A DNA stretch of 63,425 nt, from the NCBI GenBank assembly GCA_011191975.1, contig DUFA01000132.1:1-63425 (forward strand). Reading direction: 5' to 3'. Each line of letters starts with the position of its first letter. Within the stretch, counting starts at the first letter, position 1. Below, piece after piece: positions 955 to 5,915 of the stretch. The translations under genes and the position numbers were made by a program. Under the pieces are notes generated by a model, which was not told the origin of the DNA, did not search any database, and saw only the letters and a list, made by a program, of their open reading frames with translations. Source of the stretch: Dehalococcoidia bacterium. GTDB lineage: Bacteria > Chloroflexota > Dehalococcoidia > Dehalococcoidales > UBA2162.

Positions 955-1026
955 ACCACTATTCCTGCCTGATTTCTGCGTCAACGACACAATTACGGTA
1001 AACACTTAGAGTAATTACGCAATATG

Positions 1027-1092
1027 TTCAATATATGTTCAATATGTTCAATATGTTCTTGACATCTTCATGCTAATACAATATACTTTAGC
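1027..1092 (+). promoter_or_regulatory. Promoter with upstream tandem repeats and -10 inverted repeat (leader copy 1)
   Basis: TTGACA at 1059-1064 and TATACT at 1082-1087 are separated by exactly 17 nt, a near-consensus housekeeping promoter. Three TTCAATATG-type repeats (1027-1037, 1038-1046, 1047-1055) run directly into the -35. GCTAA (1072-1076) and TTAGC (1088-1092) form an inverted repeat enclosing the -10, in the position of a repressor operator. The 26 bases from GCTAATAC onward are identical in the second leader at 3532. Transcription should start near 1094 and run about 395 nt before the lipoprotein start at 1490. Confidence 0.8.
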
Positions 1093-1172
1093 ACCAAATA
1101 GAATTAACCTAACATATTGTCCCTTTACCACCTTACACCTTCTTGAGTTATAGAGGTGAATGAGATGAGGTT

Positions 1173-1216
1173 AAAGACACCGCAATCAGTTTATCCTGTG
1201 GTTTGCGGTGTCTTTT
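1173..1216 (+). terminator. Leader attenuator hairpin (copy 1)
   Basis: AAAGACACCGCAA (1173-1185) pairs with TTGCGGTGTCTTT (1203-1215) and the stem ends in a short T run, giving an intrinsic terminator inside the leader, about 80 nt after the predicted transcription start and before the structured RNA. The second leader has the equivalent hairpin at the same relative place with different loop sequence but conserved pairing. A GAGGTGA Shine-Dalgarno-like motif at 1153-1159 precedes the hairpin, so a short translated leader peptide may couple ribosomes to termination; this is inference. Confidence 0.7.
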
Positions 1217-1269
1217 CTATTTCCACGTTGATTTACCGGACGTCGAAAAGGGGATATGGAATATGGGAA

Positions 1270-1412
1270 GGCTGGCCCTGCTGGGGGAAACCAGGGTGCT
1301 GAGTGTTGACAGCGCACGTCGGCTTAAATACCACCCATACCCCTCCCGTGTCCGGAGCCCTGGGGGAAATCGGGCTTTAGCAGCAGGGTCAGCCGGAAAA
1401 GGAGGTGCATTA
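1270..1412 (+). ncRNA. Putative structured cis-regulatory RNA (copy 1)
   Basis: A 14-bp stem joins 1270-1283 (GGCTGGCCCTGCTG) to 1381-1394 (CAGCAGGGTCAGCC) with one G-U pair. Inside lie a small hairpin around GTGCTG...CAGCGCAC (1297-1316), a C-rich strand with ACCACCCATACC, and an AGCCC...GGGCT hairpin with a GGGGGAAA loop (1356-1376). An AAAAGGAGGTG motif follows at 1397-1407 without a start codon at the right distance. The element is repeated at 3747-3901 with the fold kept. It does not match the riboswitch classes whose cores I can recall (cobalamin, TPP, SAM, c-di-GMP, T-box and others). Confidence 0.6.
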
Positions 1413-1489
1413 TCGAAAAAACACACCTGTACACATTAGACCAATCGATAAATAATGAATTATGACAAGTAAACTTATACGGAGGTGCT

Positions 1490-3328
1490 ATGAAAATCGA
1501 TTATAAGAAACTACTCTGGGTATTAGTGAGCTGTCTTATGGCACTTTCACTAATTATTGCTTCCTGCGAGACTCAGGAGACAGGTAAGGTTAAAGAAGAA
1601 GACGAAGGACCTGCAAAGGTTATTATCACAGAATCAAAAGAACCTCAAATCGGTGAAAGAAAAGAAGAAGTCACGACACCAAGCGATGAACCCCAATACG
1701 GTGGTATTTTCACGGCTGCTCAGGTAGCCGACACTTCTTGCTGGGATGCCACCACCGGCTTTGACCTGCTGGGTTGGCAGATTTCAATTACAAACGAACC
1801 CCTTATGGCTGGAGATTGGGCGAAAGGGCCTGCCGGAACATATGAAACTGACTGGCGATTTGGTGCAGTCGCGTATGCCAACATGTGTACAGGTCAATTG
1901 GCAGAAAGTTATGAAATCCCGGATAACGAAACTCTCATATTCCATATTCGCCCGGGTGTTCATTGGTGGAACAAACCGCCGGCAAACGGTAGAGAATTTA
2001 CTGCCGAGGATGCAGCCTGGAACATAAAGACCCAGTGGGATCTTCCAATCGGCAACTTCCAGGCATTCTTCCCTCCGGAAGAACGATTGATATCGGTTGA
2101 AGCAACGGATAAATATACAGTCGTCCTTAAGGTTCCACTTAACACTCAGGGAATTCATTTCTGGGAGGATGGCCAGCGCGCCTACATGATGTGCCCGGAA
2201 TTGTATCCCACCCAGAAAGAATGGGAAAATGCTCTCGGCACTGGCGCTTTTATGATAAAGGACTATATTCCTGGCGCAATGATATCCATGGAGAGAAATC
2301 CCAACTACTGGCAAACCGATCCGTGTGGACCCGGCAAGGGTAACCAGCTTCCCTACATAGACGGGTTGAAGTTCCCCGTTGTTCCAGACCTGTCAGCCCG
2401 GGAGGCAGCTTTCCGGACGGGGAAAATAGACACTTTTGGAGCTAATTGGGAACAATGGGAAGTATTCCAGAAAACTATGAATTACGAGTTTGAATGGGTG
2501 TACACCTATGGATGGCACTCCCTACCGACAGGCAGGCAGGACAAAGATCTGCCATTCAACGAACTTCTTGTACGGCAGGCAATGAATTTGGCCGTCGATA
2601 AGGTCAGGATACTCGAAGACTACTATGAAGGACACGGATCTCTAATGTGCTGGCCGTACTACGATACTCCAGCATTTGCAGACCTGTACATTCCGCTGGA
2701 GGAACTGTCGACAGAACCGGCGATAGCAGGTTCAATGTGCGGCGTTCAGGAGTTAATGACAGGCGGTAATCCTGAAAAAGCCAAGCAGCTTTTAGCACAA
2801 GCCGGGTATCCTAATGGTTTTAAGACTAATATTTATTCAAGTTCACCAACGGCAACGGACTTGCTTTCTGTCGTAAAGGAAGATCTTGCAAAGGTTGGCA
2901 TCGATATGGAAATAAAGCAGGTTGAACCCTCTATATATAGAGGCATGGATCGTGCTCGTACCTGGGAGGAAATGTGGTACAAAGGCACCAAGCAGCATTT
3001 CCTGCCCCATTACCTGTTCGAGGTCCGTCCCGAATCCAACGACTGCGCTTCATTCTTCGAAAGCCCGAAAGTCAGGGAAGTACTGAAAAGTATCAATGAA
3101 AATCTGGCTGTAGACGACGTTGTCTGGAGAAGCGCTCTTAAAAATCTGACTCCATACCTGCTCGAAGAATCGATTGCCATATGGTTGCCTATACCCTACA
3201 ATTATAACTGCTGGCAGCCGTGGTTGAAGAACTACTATGGTGCTACTACGCTGGGCGCAATGTTACCCTTCCACCATACATACTATAACTGGATTGACAC
3301 TGAGCTAAAGAAGGAAATGGGATACTAA
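1490..3328 (+). CDS. Family 5 ABC substrate-binding lipoprotein (oligopeptide/nickel type), paralog 1
   Basis: 612 residues, usual size for extracellular solute-binding family 5 (PF00496; DppA/OppA/NikA). The N-terminus is a lipoprotein signal with lipobox IIASC and predicted lipidated Cys26, followed by a roughly 40-residue acidic linker (to about residue 68). Family signatures include EPQYGG-type entry to the mature domain, NPNYW after a turn, and LLAQAGYPNG. Start is fixed by GGAGGTG six bases before the ATG. No permease or ATPase genes accompany it, so it is an orphan receptor that must borrow a transporter or act as a sensor. Its first 26 residues and its leader closely match the next gene. 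Ligand cannot be deduced. Confidence 0.88.
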   Translation: MKIDYKKLLWVLVSCLMALSLIIASCETQETGKVKEEDEGPAKVIITESKEPQIGERKEEVTTPSDEPQYGGIFTAAQVADTSCWDATTGFDLLGWQISITNEPLMAGDWAKGPAGTYETDWRFGAVAYANMCTGQLAESYEIPDNETLIFHIRPGVHWWNKPPANGREFTAEDAAWNIKTQWDLPIGNFQAFFPPEERLISVEATDKYTVVLKVPLNTQGIHFWEDGQRAYMMCPELYPTQKEWENALGTGAFMIKDYIPGAMISMERNPNYWQTDPCGPGKGNQLPYIDGLKFPVVPDLSAREAAFRTGKIDTFGANWEQWEVFQKTMNYEFEWVYTYGWHSLPTGRQDKDLPFNELLVRQAMNLAVDKVRILEDYYEGHGSLMCWPYYDTPAFADLYIPLEELSTEPAIAGSMCGVQELMTGGNPEKAKQLLAQAGYPNGFKTNIYSSSPTATDLLSVVKEDLAKVGIDMEIKQVEPSIYRGMDRARTWEEMWYKGTKQHFLPHYLFEVRPESNDCASFFESPKVREVLKSINENLAVDDVVWRSALKNLTPYLLEESIAIWLPIPYNYNCWQPWLKNYYGATTLGAMLPFHHTYYNWIDTELKKEMGY

Positions 3329-3374
3329 TAATCCGTCTGTACAGCATAATAGTTATCGACTCGTAAGTTTAGAC

Positions 3375-3408
3375 AGTAGGAGGTAGAGAATAATCTCTAC
3401 CTCCTACT
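3375..3408 (+). terminator. Perfect 15-bp hairpin after paralog 1
   Basis: AGTAGGAGGTAGAGA (3375-3389) pairs perfectly with TCTCTACCTCCTACT (3394-3408) around a four-base loop. It lies 47 bases beyond the stop codon and has no good T run after it, so it may be a weak terminator or an mRNA 3' stabiliser. A related AGGAGGTAGA hairpin follows the second paralog at 5795. Confidence 0.65.
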
Positions 3409-3496
3409 TATTAGTGTACTGTAAAGGTTATTTTTTAATATAACGAATATACAATCAAATTCCCAATAAATACGAGTAAGTATCGAAGCTGTTAGT

Positions 3497-3552
3497 TTCA
3501 GATTACCTTCAGATTACCTTGACATCTTAACGCTAATACAATATACTTTAGC
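3497..3552 (+). promoter_or_regulatory. Promoter with upstream tandem repeats and -10 inverted repeat (leader copy 2)
   Basis: Two perfect TTCAGATTACC repeats (3497-3507, 3508-3518) abut TTGACA at 3519-3524, which is 17 nt from TATACT at 3542-3547. GCTAA (3532-3536) and TTAGC (3548-3552) flank the -10 exactly as in copy 1. The upstream repeats differ in sequence from copy 1 but begin TTCA and have a unit of 9-11 bases, close to one helical turn. Confidence 0.8.
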
Positions 3553-3622
3553 ACCAATACATATGTAAAACCTAATATACTGTTCCTTTACCATTTTCCA
3601 CCTTCTACCTAAGGAGGTGATT

Positions 3623-3646
3623 ATGATGAGATTAAAGGCACCGTAA
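3623..3646 (+). CDS. Possible seven-codon leader peptide MMRLKAP
   Basis: A strong AAGGAGGTGA at 3611-3620 is followed by ATGATGAGATTAAAG and a TAA stop that falls in the 5' arm of the attenuator hairpin. Copy 1 has the same SD and an ATGAGGTTAAAG start (1165) but reads CAA instead of TAA and so stays open for 42 codons. The conserved MRLK(T/A)P could be a regulatory peptide, or the conservation may reflect only the RNA stem. Confidence 0.35.
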   Translation: MMRLKAP

Positions 3647-3680
3647 ACCATTGAACCTGATGGTTTGTGGTGCTTTTTTT
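3634..3680 (+). terminator. Leader attenuator hairpin (copy 2)
   Basis: AAAGGCACCGTAAACCA (3634-3650) pairs with TGGTTTGTGGTGCTTTT (3661-3677) including three G-U pairs, followed by a seven-T run to 3680. This is a textbook intrinsic terminator placed about 80 nt into the leader, 280 nt upstream of the lipoprotein start. Its position relative to promoter and structured RNA is the same as in copy 1. Confidence 0.8.
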
Positions 3681-3746
3681 ATTAACCGATATTGGACTTA
3701 TTGAACCAAGGTATAAAAGAAGTGTATGAATATAATACTATATACA

Positions 3747-3901
3747 GACTGACCCTGCTGAGGGAAAACAGGATGCTGAGTGTTGACAGCGCACGTCGGC
3801 TCAAATACCACCCATACCTCCGTATCCGGAGCCCCGGGGGAAATCGAGCTTTAGCAGCGGGATCAGCCGGAAAAGGAGGTGCATTATAGGAATAATACAC
3901 C
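3747..3901 (+). ncRNA. Putative structured cis-regulatory RNA (copy 2)
   Basis: The closing stem pairs 3747-3760 with 3855-3868; relative to copy 1 it keeps pairing through U-A to U-G changes but has two mismatches. Blocks conserved with copy 1 include TGCTGAGTGTTGACAGCG, CACGTCGGCT, ATACCACCCATACC, TCCGGAGCCC and GGGGGAAATCG. A further hairpin, GGTGCATTAT (3878-3887) with ATAATACACC (3892-3901), sequesters the AGGAGGTG motif. The lipoprotein start at 3964 has its own AAGGAGGTG. Confidence 0.6.
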
Positions 3902-3963
3902 GGTACAACTCAGATAGATTGAGGAAAGACAAATTTTAATGAGTAAACTGTTAAGGAGGTGTT

Positions 3964-5745
3964 ATGAAAATCGATTATAAAAAAATATTCTTGGTATTAG
4001 TAAGTTGCCTCATGGTACTTTCACTGATTATTGCTTCTTGCGGTACTAAGGAAACAGATAAAGAGCAGGATGGTTATCGTGATCCCGATGAACCGAAATA
4101 CGGCGGAACGATGACCTTCGCCTGGTTCGAACCTCAAGGATGGGATCCATATTACACATTTATGGTGAGTTGCAGCACGCTTTATGTTGTCAATGAAGAG
4201 CTATTAATGGGTGACTGGAGCAAGACACCTGCTGGAGATGGAAGCGCAGGTATCGGTGGTTTCCTTGGTTATGCCAGCCGTTTAACCGGTGACCTTGCCG
4301 AAAGCTGGAGTATGCCGGATGAAGATACTCTGCTTTATAACATCCGCCAGGGCGTTCACTGGCAGAACAAACCACCGGTAAATGGCAGAGAATACGATGC
4401 CTATGATGCCGCCTGGGCTATCAATCGCCTGACATCAGCCCCCACCGGAGCACATCGCATGATTAGTCCTCCGGAAGAATATATTCTCGGAGCTACTGCT
4501 CTGGATAAATGGACCGTTGAAGTTAAGGTGCCTCCAGAAGCCCAGGGATTACAGGCTATCTATGTCGGTTCCTGGCTATACCATTATCCCAAGGAGGTAG
4601 TCGATACCTACGGCGACATGAAGGACTGGAAAAATGTTGTGGGGACAGGACCTTATATGCTTCAAGATTATATCACAGGGAGTGTACTTACGTTCGAGCG
4701 TAATCCGAACTACTGGCAGCACGATCCGATACACCCGAAAAACCAGCTTCCTTACCTGGATGAATTGAAGTGGATGATTATCGGTGACGCCTCGACGCAG
4801 CTGGCAGCATTCCGTACCGGTCAGGTTGATATATCATACGGTTTAGCGATAAATACGGAAGATTCGAAGACGCTAATCAACGAGAATCCCGAATTACACT
4901 ATGTAACGCTTCCTGGCGGTTTTGATGCACATTTATATTTCAGAGTAGATAAACCGGAGTTACCCTGGAAAGATACCAGAGTCAGGCAAGCGATGACCCT
5001 GTGTATTAACAAACAGGAACTTATAGATGACTACTACGGCGGAGATGCAAACCTGCTTGGTGCAGTATATCCTCCGGATAAAGCCTGGGAACCATTCTAT
5101 ACTCCTCTCGAAAAACAGCCGACCAAGCCGACTACTCCTGATTCACGATGCGGTGTCCAGGAACTGTTCACGTTCGATGAAACTACTATCCCCAAGGCAA
5201 AGGCTCTGCTTGCCGAAGCAGGATATCCTAATGGTTTCAAGTGCCAGATAATCTCCTCCAGTCCTGCTCAAACAGACTTCCTGTCCATCATCAAGGAATA
5301 TTTTTCCGTGGTTAACGTCGAACTGGAGATACAACAGCTTGAAGGCAGTATCGTCGGCGGCATGAGACGCTCCAGATCCTACGAGGAAGGTATTTACACC
5401 GCGTCACCCACAGCAGCCTTCCCTTATGATATGCACAGCACCCGCATCGAAAGTTTCGACTGCTTCAGTTATTATGAGCACCCCAAGACGAGAGCAGCCT
5501 ACGAAGAGCAGCGAAAATACGTAATGAAGGACGACGTTAAATACGCTTCTACTCTCAAAGAAATTACCCCTTTCATTCTGGAGCAGTGCGTCGGCATATG
5601 GTGTCCGGTTCCACGGAGTTACCGAATGTGGTGGCCCTGGGTGCAGAACTATCATGGCGAGTCCTCACTAGGCTGCGATGACCAACTCCAGATATACTGG
5701 TACATGTGGATAGACGAAGAGATGAAACTAGGTATGGGCTATTAA
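3964..5745 (+). CDS. Family 5 ABC substrate-binding lipoprotein, paralog 2
   Basis: 593 residues. The signal peptide is nearly identical to that of the previous lipoprotein (MKIDYKK..., lipobox IIASC, Cys26), but the linker is much shorter and the binding domain has clearly diverged. Conserved family features are EPKYGGTM near residue 43, ERNPNYWQ, RVRQAMTLCINK and LLAEAGYPNG. AAGGAGGTG lies just before the ATG. The closest features upstream are the attenuator and structured RNA; a stem-loop follows at 5795. Like its neighbour it has no linked permease, so the pair probably arose by duplication of a gene together with its leader, followed by ligand specialisation. Confidence 0.88.
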   Translation: MKIDYKKIFLVLVSCLMVLSLIIASCGTKETDKEQDGYRDPDEPKYGGTMTFAWFEPQGWDPYYTFMVSCSTLYVVNEELLMGDWSKTPAGDGSAGIGGFLGYASRLTGDLAESWSMPDEDTLLYNIRQGVHWQNKPPVNGREYDAYDAAWAINRLTSAPTGAHRMISPPEEYILGATALDKWTVEVKVPPEAQGLQAIYVGSWLYHYPKEVVDTYGDMKDWKNVVGTGPYMLQDYITGSVLTFERNPNYWQHDPIHPKNQLPYLDELKWMIIGDASTQLAAFRTGQVDISYGLAINTEDSKTLINENPELHYVTLPGGFDAHLYFRVDKPELPWKDTRVRQAMTLCINKQELIDDYYGGDANLLGAVYPPDKAWEPFYTPLEKQPTKPTTPDSRCGVQELFTFDETTIPKAKALLAEAGYPNGFKCQIISSSPAQTDFLSIIKEYFSVVNVELEIQQLEGSIVGGMRRSRSYEEGIYTASPTAAFPYDMHSTRIESFDCFSYYEHPKTRAAYEEQRKYVMKDDVKYASTLKEITPFILEQCVGIWCPVPRSYRMWWPWVQNYHGESSLGCDDQLQIYWYMWIDEEMKLGMGY

Positions 5746-5794: not shown

Positions 5795-5824
5795 AAGGAG
5801 GTAGAGGAAAGTATCTACCTCCTT
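5795..5824 (+). terminator. 11-bp hairpin after paralog 2
   Basis: AAGGAGGTAGA (5795-5805) pairs with TCTACCTCCTT (5814-5824), loop of eight bases, 50 bases after the stop. It resembles the hairpin after paralog 1 in both place and sequence, supporting duplication of the whole unit including the 3' region. Confidence 0.65.
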
Positions 5825-5915
5825 ACTCATTTGTTACCCATAAGATTTTTAATGTTGTTTTAGTAAGGTTGGTGGTATAAAATCACTTTACCCATAAAGA
5901 CAAAGTGGAACATAA

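Follow-up and report, generated by a model that had tools for sequence, protein, structure and literature searches.

This locus raises the question of whether the leaders of two receptor lipoprotein genes carry a structured RNA and, if so, to which class it belongs and what it might do. The window analysed (the whole stretch of DNA, 63,425 nt) comes from the genome of Dehalococcoidia bacterium GCA_011191975.1, order Dehalococcoidales, referred to below as the host genome. A first-pass annotation had proposed a candidate new RNA class in two copies (1270–1412 and 3747–3901), on the basis of a closing stem shared by both leaders.

Two copies of a leader RNA in the window

The two leaders can be aligned throughout, from the promoter through the lipoprotein start, and both proposed copies were borne out by this alignment and by matches to covariance models (Table 1), of which R1 was built from 42 sequences. 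The 3' end of the RNA lies at approximately 1396, the remaining positions (1397–1412) being Shine-Dalgarno (SD)-like flank. In copy 1 the closing stem comprises the expected 14 bp (1270–1283 with 1381–1394, including one G-U). In copy 2 the two announced mismatches, both A-C, and the listed base differences (U-A/U-G and G-U/A-U) are indeed present. The latter are one-sided, and the two copies alone therefore offer no compensatory support for the stem. In copy 2, P1 lacks two pairs, P2 three of six and P4 one, and half of P5 is gone. Against 125 bits for copy 1 it scores 77 (R2) and is, judged by these losses, a decayed family member; other weak paralogues are the middle copy of G000:C162 and G000:C94. 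The earlier comparison thus set a good member against a decaying one, and the strong structural evidence, as far as alignments can provide it, is that of the homologues and not that of the two window copies. Minimum free energies were weakly better than those of shuffled sequences (z of −1.99 for copy 1 and −0.76 for copy 2). A hairpin covering the SD-like motif of copy 2 was found as described (GGTG pairing with CACC), and its counterpart in copy 1 (AGGTG/CACCT) is weaker.

Table 1. Coordinates of the RNA copies, their helices and the surrounding features in the window.
Feature	Position	Strand	Evidence or remark
Sigma-70-like promoter, leader 1 (TTGACA-17-TATACT)	1059..1087	+	pattern scan; 207 nt before RNA
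Terminator-like hairpin, leader 1, between promoter and RNA	1173..1216	+	fold z −4.4, 0/200 shuffles
RNA copy 1, full consensus fold	1266..1396	+	covariance model 130.7 bits (R1), 125.3 bits (R2)
P1 5' strand	1271..1283	+	pairs with 1381–1393; two-sided changes in 13/13 pairs, 109 distinct sequences
P5 5' strand GGGG	1284..1287	+	pairs with CCCC 1340–1343; two-sided changes in 3/4 pairs
P2 5' strand CCAGGG	1291..1296	+	pseudoknot with 1358–1363; two-sided changes in 5/6 pairs
P3 hairpin, variable-length loop	1298..1323	+	two-sided changes in 5/5 pairs
P5 3' strand CCCC	1340..1343	+	partner of 1284–1287
P4 5' strand CCCG	1345..1348	+	pairs with CGGG 1371–1374; C-G to G-C in 4, A-U in 1
P2 3' strand CCCUGG	1358..1363	+	partner of 1291–1296
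P4 3' strand CGGG	1371..1374	+	nearly invariant G(U)AAU join directly before
P1 3' strand	1381..1393	+	partner of 1271–1283
SD-like AGGAGGTG, directly 3' of P1	1400..1407 (copy 2: 3874–3881)	+	sequence; kept in both copies
SBP_bac_5 lipoprotein gene, copy 1 target	1490..3328	+	PF00496, 5e-58
Sigma-70-like promoter, leader 2	3519..3547	+	pattern scan; 224 nt before RNA
Mini-ORF MMRLKAP*	3623–3646	+	runs into 5' arm of leader 2 hairpin
Terminator-like hairpin, leader 2	3634..3680	+	fold z −6.1
RNA copy 2, degenerate	3743..3870	+	covariance model 84.5 bits (R1), 77.4 bits (R2); pair list
SBP_bac_5 lipoprotein gene, copy 2 target	3964..5745	+	PF00496, 5e-54

The leaders contain further elements. 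Upstream of the RNA, in the window (1059–1216 and 3519–3680) and in leaders L006, L051 and L134, an SD motif precedes a mini-ORF, which runs into a strong terminator hairpin; the encoded peptides are MMRLKAP*, MIRIRVLKLPK*, MRRQALLTVEPNG*, MRLKAS* and MMRIQAPKITWYNG*. This second control element looks like leader-peptide attenuation. Several RNA-led operons have palindromes of the type GTATACGATATCGTATAC immediately downstream of their promoters (L062 2469–2485, L063 2118–2134), which are probable operators; divergent MarR-family genes adjoin some of the operons that bear them. Both lipoprotein genes of the window end in near-perfect and very similar inverted repeats (3375–3410, AGTAGGAGGTAGAG..CTCTACCTCCTACT; 5796–5825, AAGGAGGTAGA..TCTACCTCCTT), which are probably terminators.

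Fold and covariation among homologues

The fold was derived from an alignment (A3) of 115 sequences, 109 of them distinct, which was built with a model containing P1, P2 and P3 only. Five helices were found, in the order P1, P5, P2, P3 and P4. P5 and P4 meet in a three-way junction closed by P1, P3 is nested in P5, and P2 is a pseudoknot in which the interior of P5 pairs with the loop of P4, crossing both helices. Two-sided changes occur in 28 of the 32 pairs. Paired cells amount to 95.2%, compared with 82.6% after shuffling, and pairing does not exceed 62% when the partners are slid by one to three columns. Since P4 and P5 were absent from the alignment model, their covariation support is independent: in P5, G-C is replaced by A-U at two pairs (in 3 and 6–7 sequences), and P4 is inverted from C-G to G-C in four homologues. 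Among the two-sided variants of P2 is CUGAGG/CCUCAG. A variant of P5 in which GGGG pairs with a shifted C-rich register instead of CCCC was rejected, as it produced more mismatches (for example, eight A-C at one pair).

The joining segments are far more constant than the stems. AAA is conserved at 94–97%, UUAA at 87–94%, the single U between P5 and P4 at 99% and GUAAU at 93–98%, with UG as a further conserved join, whereas P1 and P3 vary freely. Nearly fixed joins beside variable helices are, as read from the alignment, what marks a binding pocket or an active site. The internal conserved blocks of the first-pass annotation stood in part: conserved joins exist, but TGAGTGTTGACAGCG and ACCACCCATACC belong to the variable P3 hairpin and its linker and are kept only among close paralogues. 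A coding explanation was considered for a short ORF ('MHYR.NTPV') that follows an SD-like motif and differs between the window copies mostly by synonymous changes; it was rejected, as other copies lack the frame.

Distribution, position and target genes

Blast searches with copy 1 retrieved 14 places in the host genome (72–100% identity), as did a consensus query, and R1 found at least 16 copies there. Matches to R1 were present in 63 of the 156 genomes of the order and in five genomes that belong to the class but not to the order. Searches of 400 phylum genomes outside the order with R2 yielded no strong match; two other Chloroflexota genomes scored 27–28 bits and were not accepted as bearers. 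All named records retrieved by an exact-pattern search were Dehalococcoidia or Chloroflexota MAGs. Genomes G019, G055 and G077 appear to be Dehalococcoides-like, and some of G078–G085, which carry rdhA operons, would fit Dehalogenimonas. No match was found in the plasmids searched.

Two phage contigs in IMG/VR carry full copies (119.8 and 86.8 bits), located 20–24 nt before a gene start. These are L233 (1725–1853, plus strand) and L234 (5360–5520, minus strand), from IMGVR_UViG_3300031673_011666 and IMGVR_UViG_3300033150_002262; in L234 a large insertion separates P4 from P1, and the gene behind one of the phage copies resembles radical SAM mobile pair protein A. Tandem copies, two or three before one operon and sometimes with one of them decayed, were observed at G000:C162 2196–2710 (L060), L054 8244–8690, L214 517–808 and L193 7044–7456. 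Tandem copies before one operon (G000:C162, L054, L214) are typical of riboswitches.

Flanks suitable for an analysis of position were available for 139 distinct copies of the RNA. In 104 cases the closest gene downstream shares the strand of the RNA, and in 26 it lies on the opposite one. Within tandem gene pairs, the RNA is co-oriented with both neighbours in 60 of 64 cases and anti-oriented in four. A sigma-70-like promoter of the TTGACA type lies 95–244 nt upstream in 11 of the 13 host-genome copies examined by pattern scan. A minority (21 + 4, about 25 copies) sits 3' of a gene and has an opposing gene as its next neighbour, with no co-oriented gene following. By position and orientation, the RNA is thus predicted to be a 5' leader co-transcribed with its target, with a minority of copies placed 3' or standing alone.

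The first-pass annotation placed the RNA upstream of receptor lipoproteins. This is correct for the window, and SBP_bac_5 genes are the main targets in the bacterial family of the host, where the host genome itself has the RNA before about 9–10 of its 41 SBP_bac_5 genes; as a general description it proved too narrow. The first genes behind the RNA, 89 of which were scanned, comprise SBP_bac_5/Dpp genes (22 plus 5), ribonucleotide reductase (NrdJ; 9), ABC permeases (8), Mo-hydroxylase-type [2Fe-2S] subunits (7), radical SAM proteins (7) and DctP (5). RNA-led operons include modA-modB-modC, dppBC-SBP-AOR (AFOR), TRAP systems, radical SAM-B12 radical SAM-rdhA-rdhA, nrdJ-rdhA and, in the host genome, a ferredoxin-AOR operon. 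One MarR gene type adjoins several copies and two-component genes adjoin others. The targets accordingly divide into uptake systems (oligopeptide/nickel-type ABC, TRAP, molybdate) and enzymes (reductive dehalogenases, B12 ribonucleotide reductase, molybdenum hydroxylases, aldehyde:ferredoxin oxidoreductase). Their theme is substrate uptake together with cofactor-rich respiratory and catabolic enzymes; it is coherent within lineages, a single metabolic theme is absent, and no single ligand is implied. Because the targets elsewhere extend beyond receptor lipoproteins, nothing favours a peptide ligand in particular.

In Dehalogenimonas-like genomes (L162, L160, L109, L156) the gene in front of the RNA often encodes a 92-aa DUF2795 protein, and nrdJ and rdhA occur there in several near-identical RNA-led copies, as is seen on mobile islands. 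Of the two RNA copies in the Dehalococcoides-like genomes, one has a terminator immediately behind it and the other a tiny ORF. At L096, L098 and L099, a conserved hydrophobic ORF of about 26 aa (MSSLGLWLILIAIIIS..) lies 3' of the second RNA copy and adjoins a histidine kinase/response regulator pair.

Possible function and comparison with known RNAs

A conserved, covarying and aptamer-like domain is present, as judged from the alignments. The RNA is a conserved structured leader and most likely a riboswitch-type aptamer controlling uptake operons and operons for respiratory, cofactor-rich oxidoreductases in Dehalococcoidia, a reading to which we assign a probability of roughly 55% and in which both ligand binding and switching are putative. 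The computed basis for it is the five-helix fold, the near-invariant joins, the co-orientation with genes and the location in 5' leaders behind promoters. Against it speak the lack of a common expression platform, the great stability of P1, the approximately 25 copies 3' of genes and the lack of a single target theme. More tentatively, the RNA might represent a new riboswitch class whose ligand is sensed by no known class, perhaps an unrecognised signal of energy or cofactor status. The class would then coordinate operons for uptake, dehalogenation and other respiratory functions throughout Dehalococcoidia, and their phages and mobile islands would have adopted it.

How such an aptamer might switch was approached from several sides. 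The alternative local hairpin that had been proposed for the 5' stem strand (CCTG..CAGG, involving the 5' strands of P1 and P2) is not conserved, reaching 5 bp in only 55 of the 115 homologues; P1, with a median energy of about −21 kcal/mol among homologues, is too stable for an obvious switching helix; intrinsic terminators lie behind only 8 of the 139 copies; and downstream SDs do not differ from control SDs in accessibility (47 vs 44, p = 0.92). Two mutually exclusive folds are therefore not supported, and neither is a simple switch in competition with P1. Neither SD sequestration nor terminators are enriched, so that neither is favoured as a general platform, and a platform of another kind may exist. 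Among candidate ligands, c-di-AMP was excluded, since a protein with the DAC cyclase domain was absent from all 30 genomes searched (control rings, 11/14). GGDEF proteins were not found in bearers G006, G039 (15 RNA copies), G027, G049, G139 and G141, which makes c-di-GMP an unlikely ligand, with the caveat that MAGs may be incomplete.

A mechanism consistent with the riboswitch-type aptamer can be sketched. The invariant joins would form the binding pocket, and ligand binding would lock P2, P4 and P5. The sequence CCUCC is universally kept in P5/P4 and equals the ribosomal anti-SD sequence. In the unlocked state it might be freed as an internal anti-SD, either masking the downstream SD or exposing the leader to processing. 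Expression would then be higher in the bound, folded state than in the unlocked one, the direction being a guess, and P1 would stay constant, probably taking no part in switching.

The same absence of a common platform, the very stable P1, the very mixed targets and the co-orientation with genes, 3' positions included, could be accounted for by a protein-binding or mRNA-stability element, with a global RNA-binding protein or RNase setting the translation or decay of long catabolic operons and no small ligand involved. We consider this unlikely, as near-invariant unpaired joins and a pseudoknotted junction exceed what most protein sites need and no obvious RNA-binding autoregulator is found among the target genes. 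Less plausible still is processing of the leader by a new self-cleaving ribozyme. The compact pseudoknotted fold, the mixed contexts, the occurrence on phages and mobile islands and the missing platform would all be in keeping with cleavage, but known small ribozymes are smaller and have a shorter closing stem than the present RNA, and tandem arrays before one gene together with lineage-specific target sets fit regulation better.

Two further explanations, each of which we regard as very improbable, derive from the nature of some targets. Copies of families f2 and f17 precede modA/modB/modC and Mo-hydroxylase subunits, AOR operons follow the RNA in G000 and G039, and the string ACCAGGG-hairpin-CUCCCGU is common to the RNA and the E. 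coli moaA leader, as would be expected of a variant or derivative of the Moco/tungsten-cofactor riboswitch (RF01055). The RF01055 model does not match the element, though, and R1 scores the E. coli Moco RNA at 1.0 bit at the best correctly placed match; the string likeness is within chance (4/200 shuffles, and a reversed consensus scores equally), the pairing partner of CCAGGG differs, and most targets are not Mo/W genes. Similarly, a sensor reporting corrinoid status to nrdJ, rdhA and other corrinoid proteins would agree with the NrdJ_Z match above cut-off in the one ribonucleotide reductase tested, and with the rdhA operons, the B12-binding corrinoid protein and the B12 radical SAM enzymes downstream, but it does not explain the transporter and Mo targets, and RF00174 has no match at the element. 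Canonical Moco riboswitches were found in 103 of the 156 genomes of the order, up to eight per genome, and canonical cobalamin riboswitches in 98 of the same 156. Because both coexist with the present RNA in the same genomes, it replaces neither of them in general. A dispersed MITE/REP-like repeat with incidental structure, for which up to 16 copies per genome, a subfamily (GGCGGGCTCTGCCA..) with nearly the same P1 in several genomes and the phage-contig copies could be cited, is the least credible of all, given the compensatory changes in all helices, the 60:4 co-orientation, the loci conserved in three Dehalococcoides-like species and the substantial divergence of copies within one genome.

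More than a third of the sampled genomes in an environmentally important order, which includes relatives that breathe chlorinated pollutants, thus bear this RNA, up to 16 times per genome. In Dehalogenimonas-like bioremediation bacteria it fronts reductive dehalogenase and B12-dependent operons, where control by RNA has hardly been studied. Being a clean orphan aptamer candidate of high copy number, with target sets that recur, it opens a directly testable search for a new ligand and for a global regulator of these slow-growing anaerobes.

Rfam 15 has no family for it: at the gathering threshold no match was obtained in the window, a relaxed search (E ≤ 10) of positions 1000–4100 gave chance matches only, none of them on the RNA, and 20 further RNA loci yielded tRNAs only. 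A literature search found no earlier description. The proposal of a structured RNA class without an Rfam relative has therefore held up, since the homologues display compensatory changes as well; an Rfam match and homologues with an uncompensated stem, the two outcomes that the first-pass annotation had named as counting against it, were both looked for and neither was seen. The nearest report, among the orphan riboswitch candidates of Breaker-type surveys, is the rdhA motif (WRC-34-1; Narunsky et al. 2024, PMC11109978), which is placed before rdhA, mainly in Dehalococcoides, with 18 representatives. It is likewise a structured leader RNA in relatives of Dehalococcoides, and the present RNA also precedes rdhA in Dehalogenimonas-like genomes. 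In contrast to that description, the present RNA is found twice in each Dehalococcoides-like genome, in neither case before rdhA (its neighbours in G019, G055 and G077 are an AAA ATPase/YajQ-like gene and a response regulator), and it occurs in 63 or more genomes with other targets. Identity of the two, which were compared by location and description, is unlikely because the location before rdhA in Dehalococcoides is not matched. We classify the RNA as an uncatalogued structured leader RNA and orphan riboswitch candidate, set apart from the rdhA motif by location and description, with a small risk of overlap.

With the Moco riboswitch the RNA has in common the 5' leader location besides some targets and the short string, and differs from it in helix topology, with models that fail to match in either direction. 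With the cobalamin riboswitch it shares the design of a large pseudoknotted leader RNA and some corrinoid-enzyme targets, but neither sequence nor structure. The c-di-GMP riboswitches (GEMM) occur in high copy number before mixed targets, with tandem and phage copies. The present RNA resembles them in all these respects and differs in having no Rfam match and in being borne by several genomes that lack a GGDEF protein.
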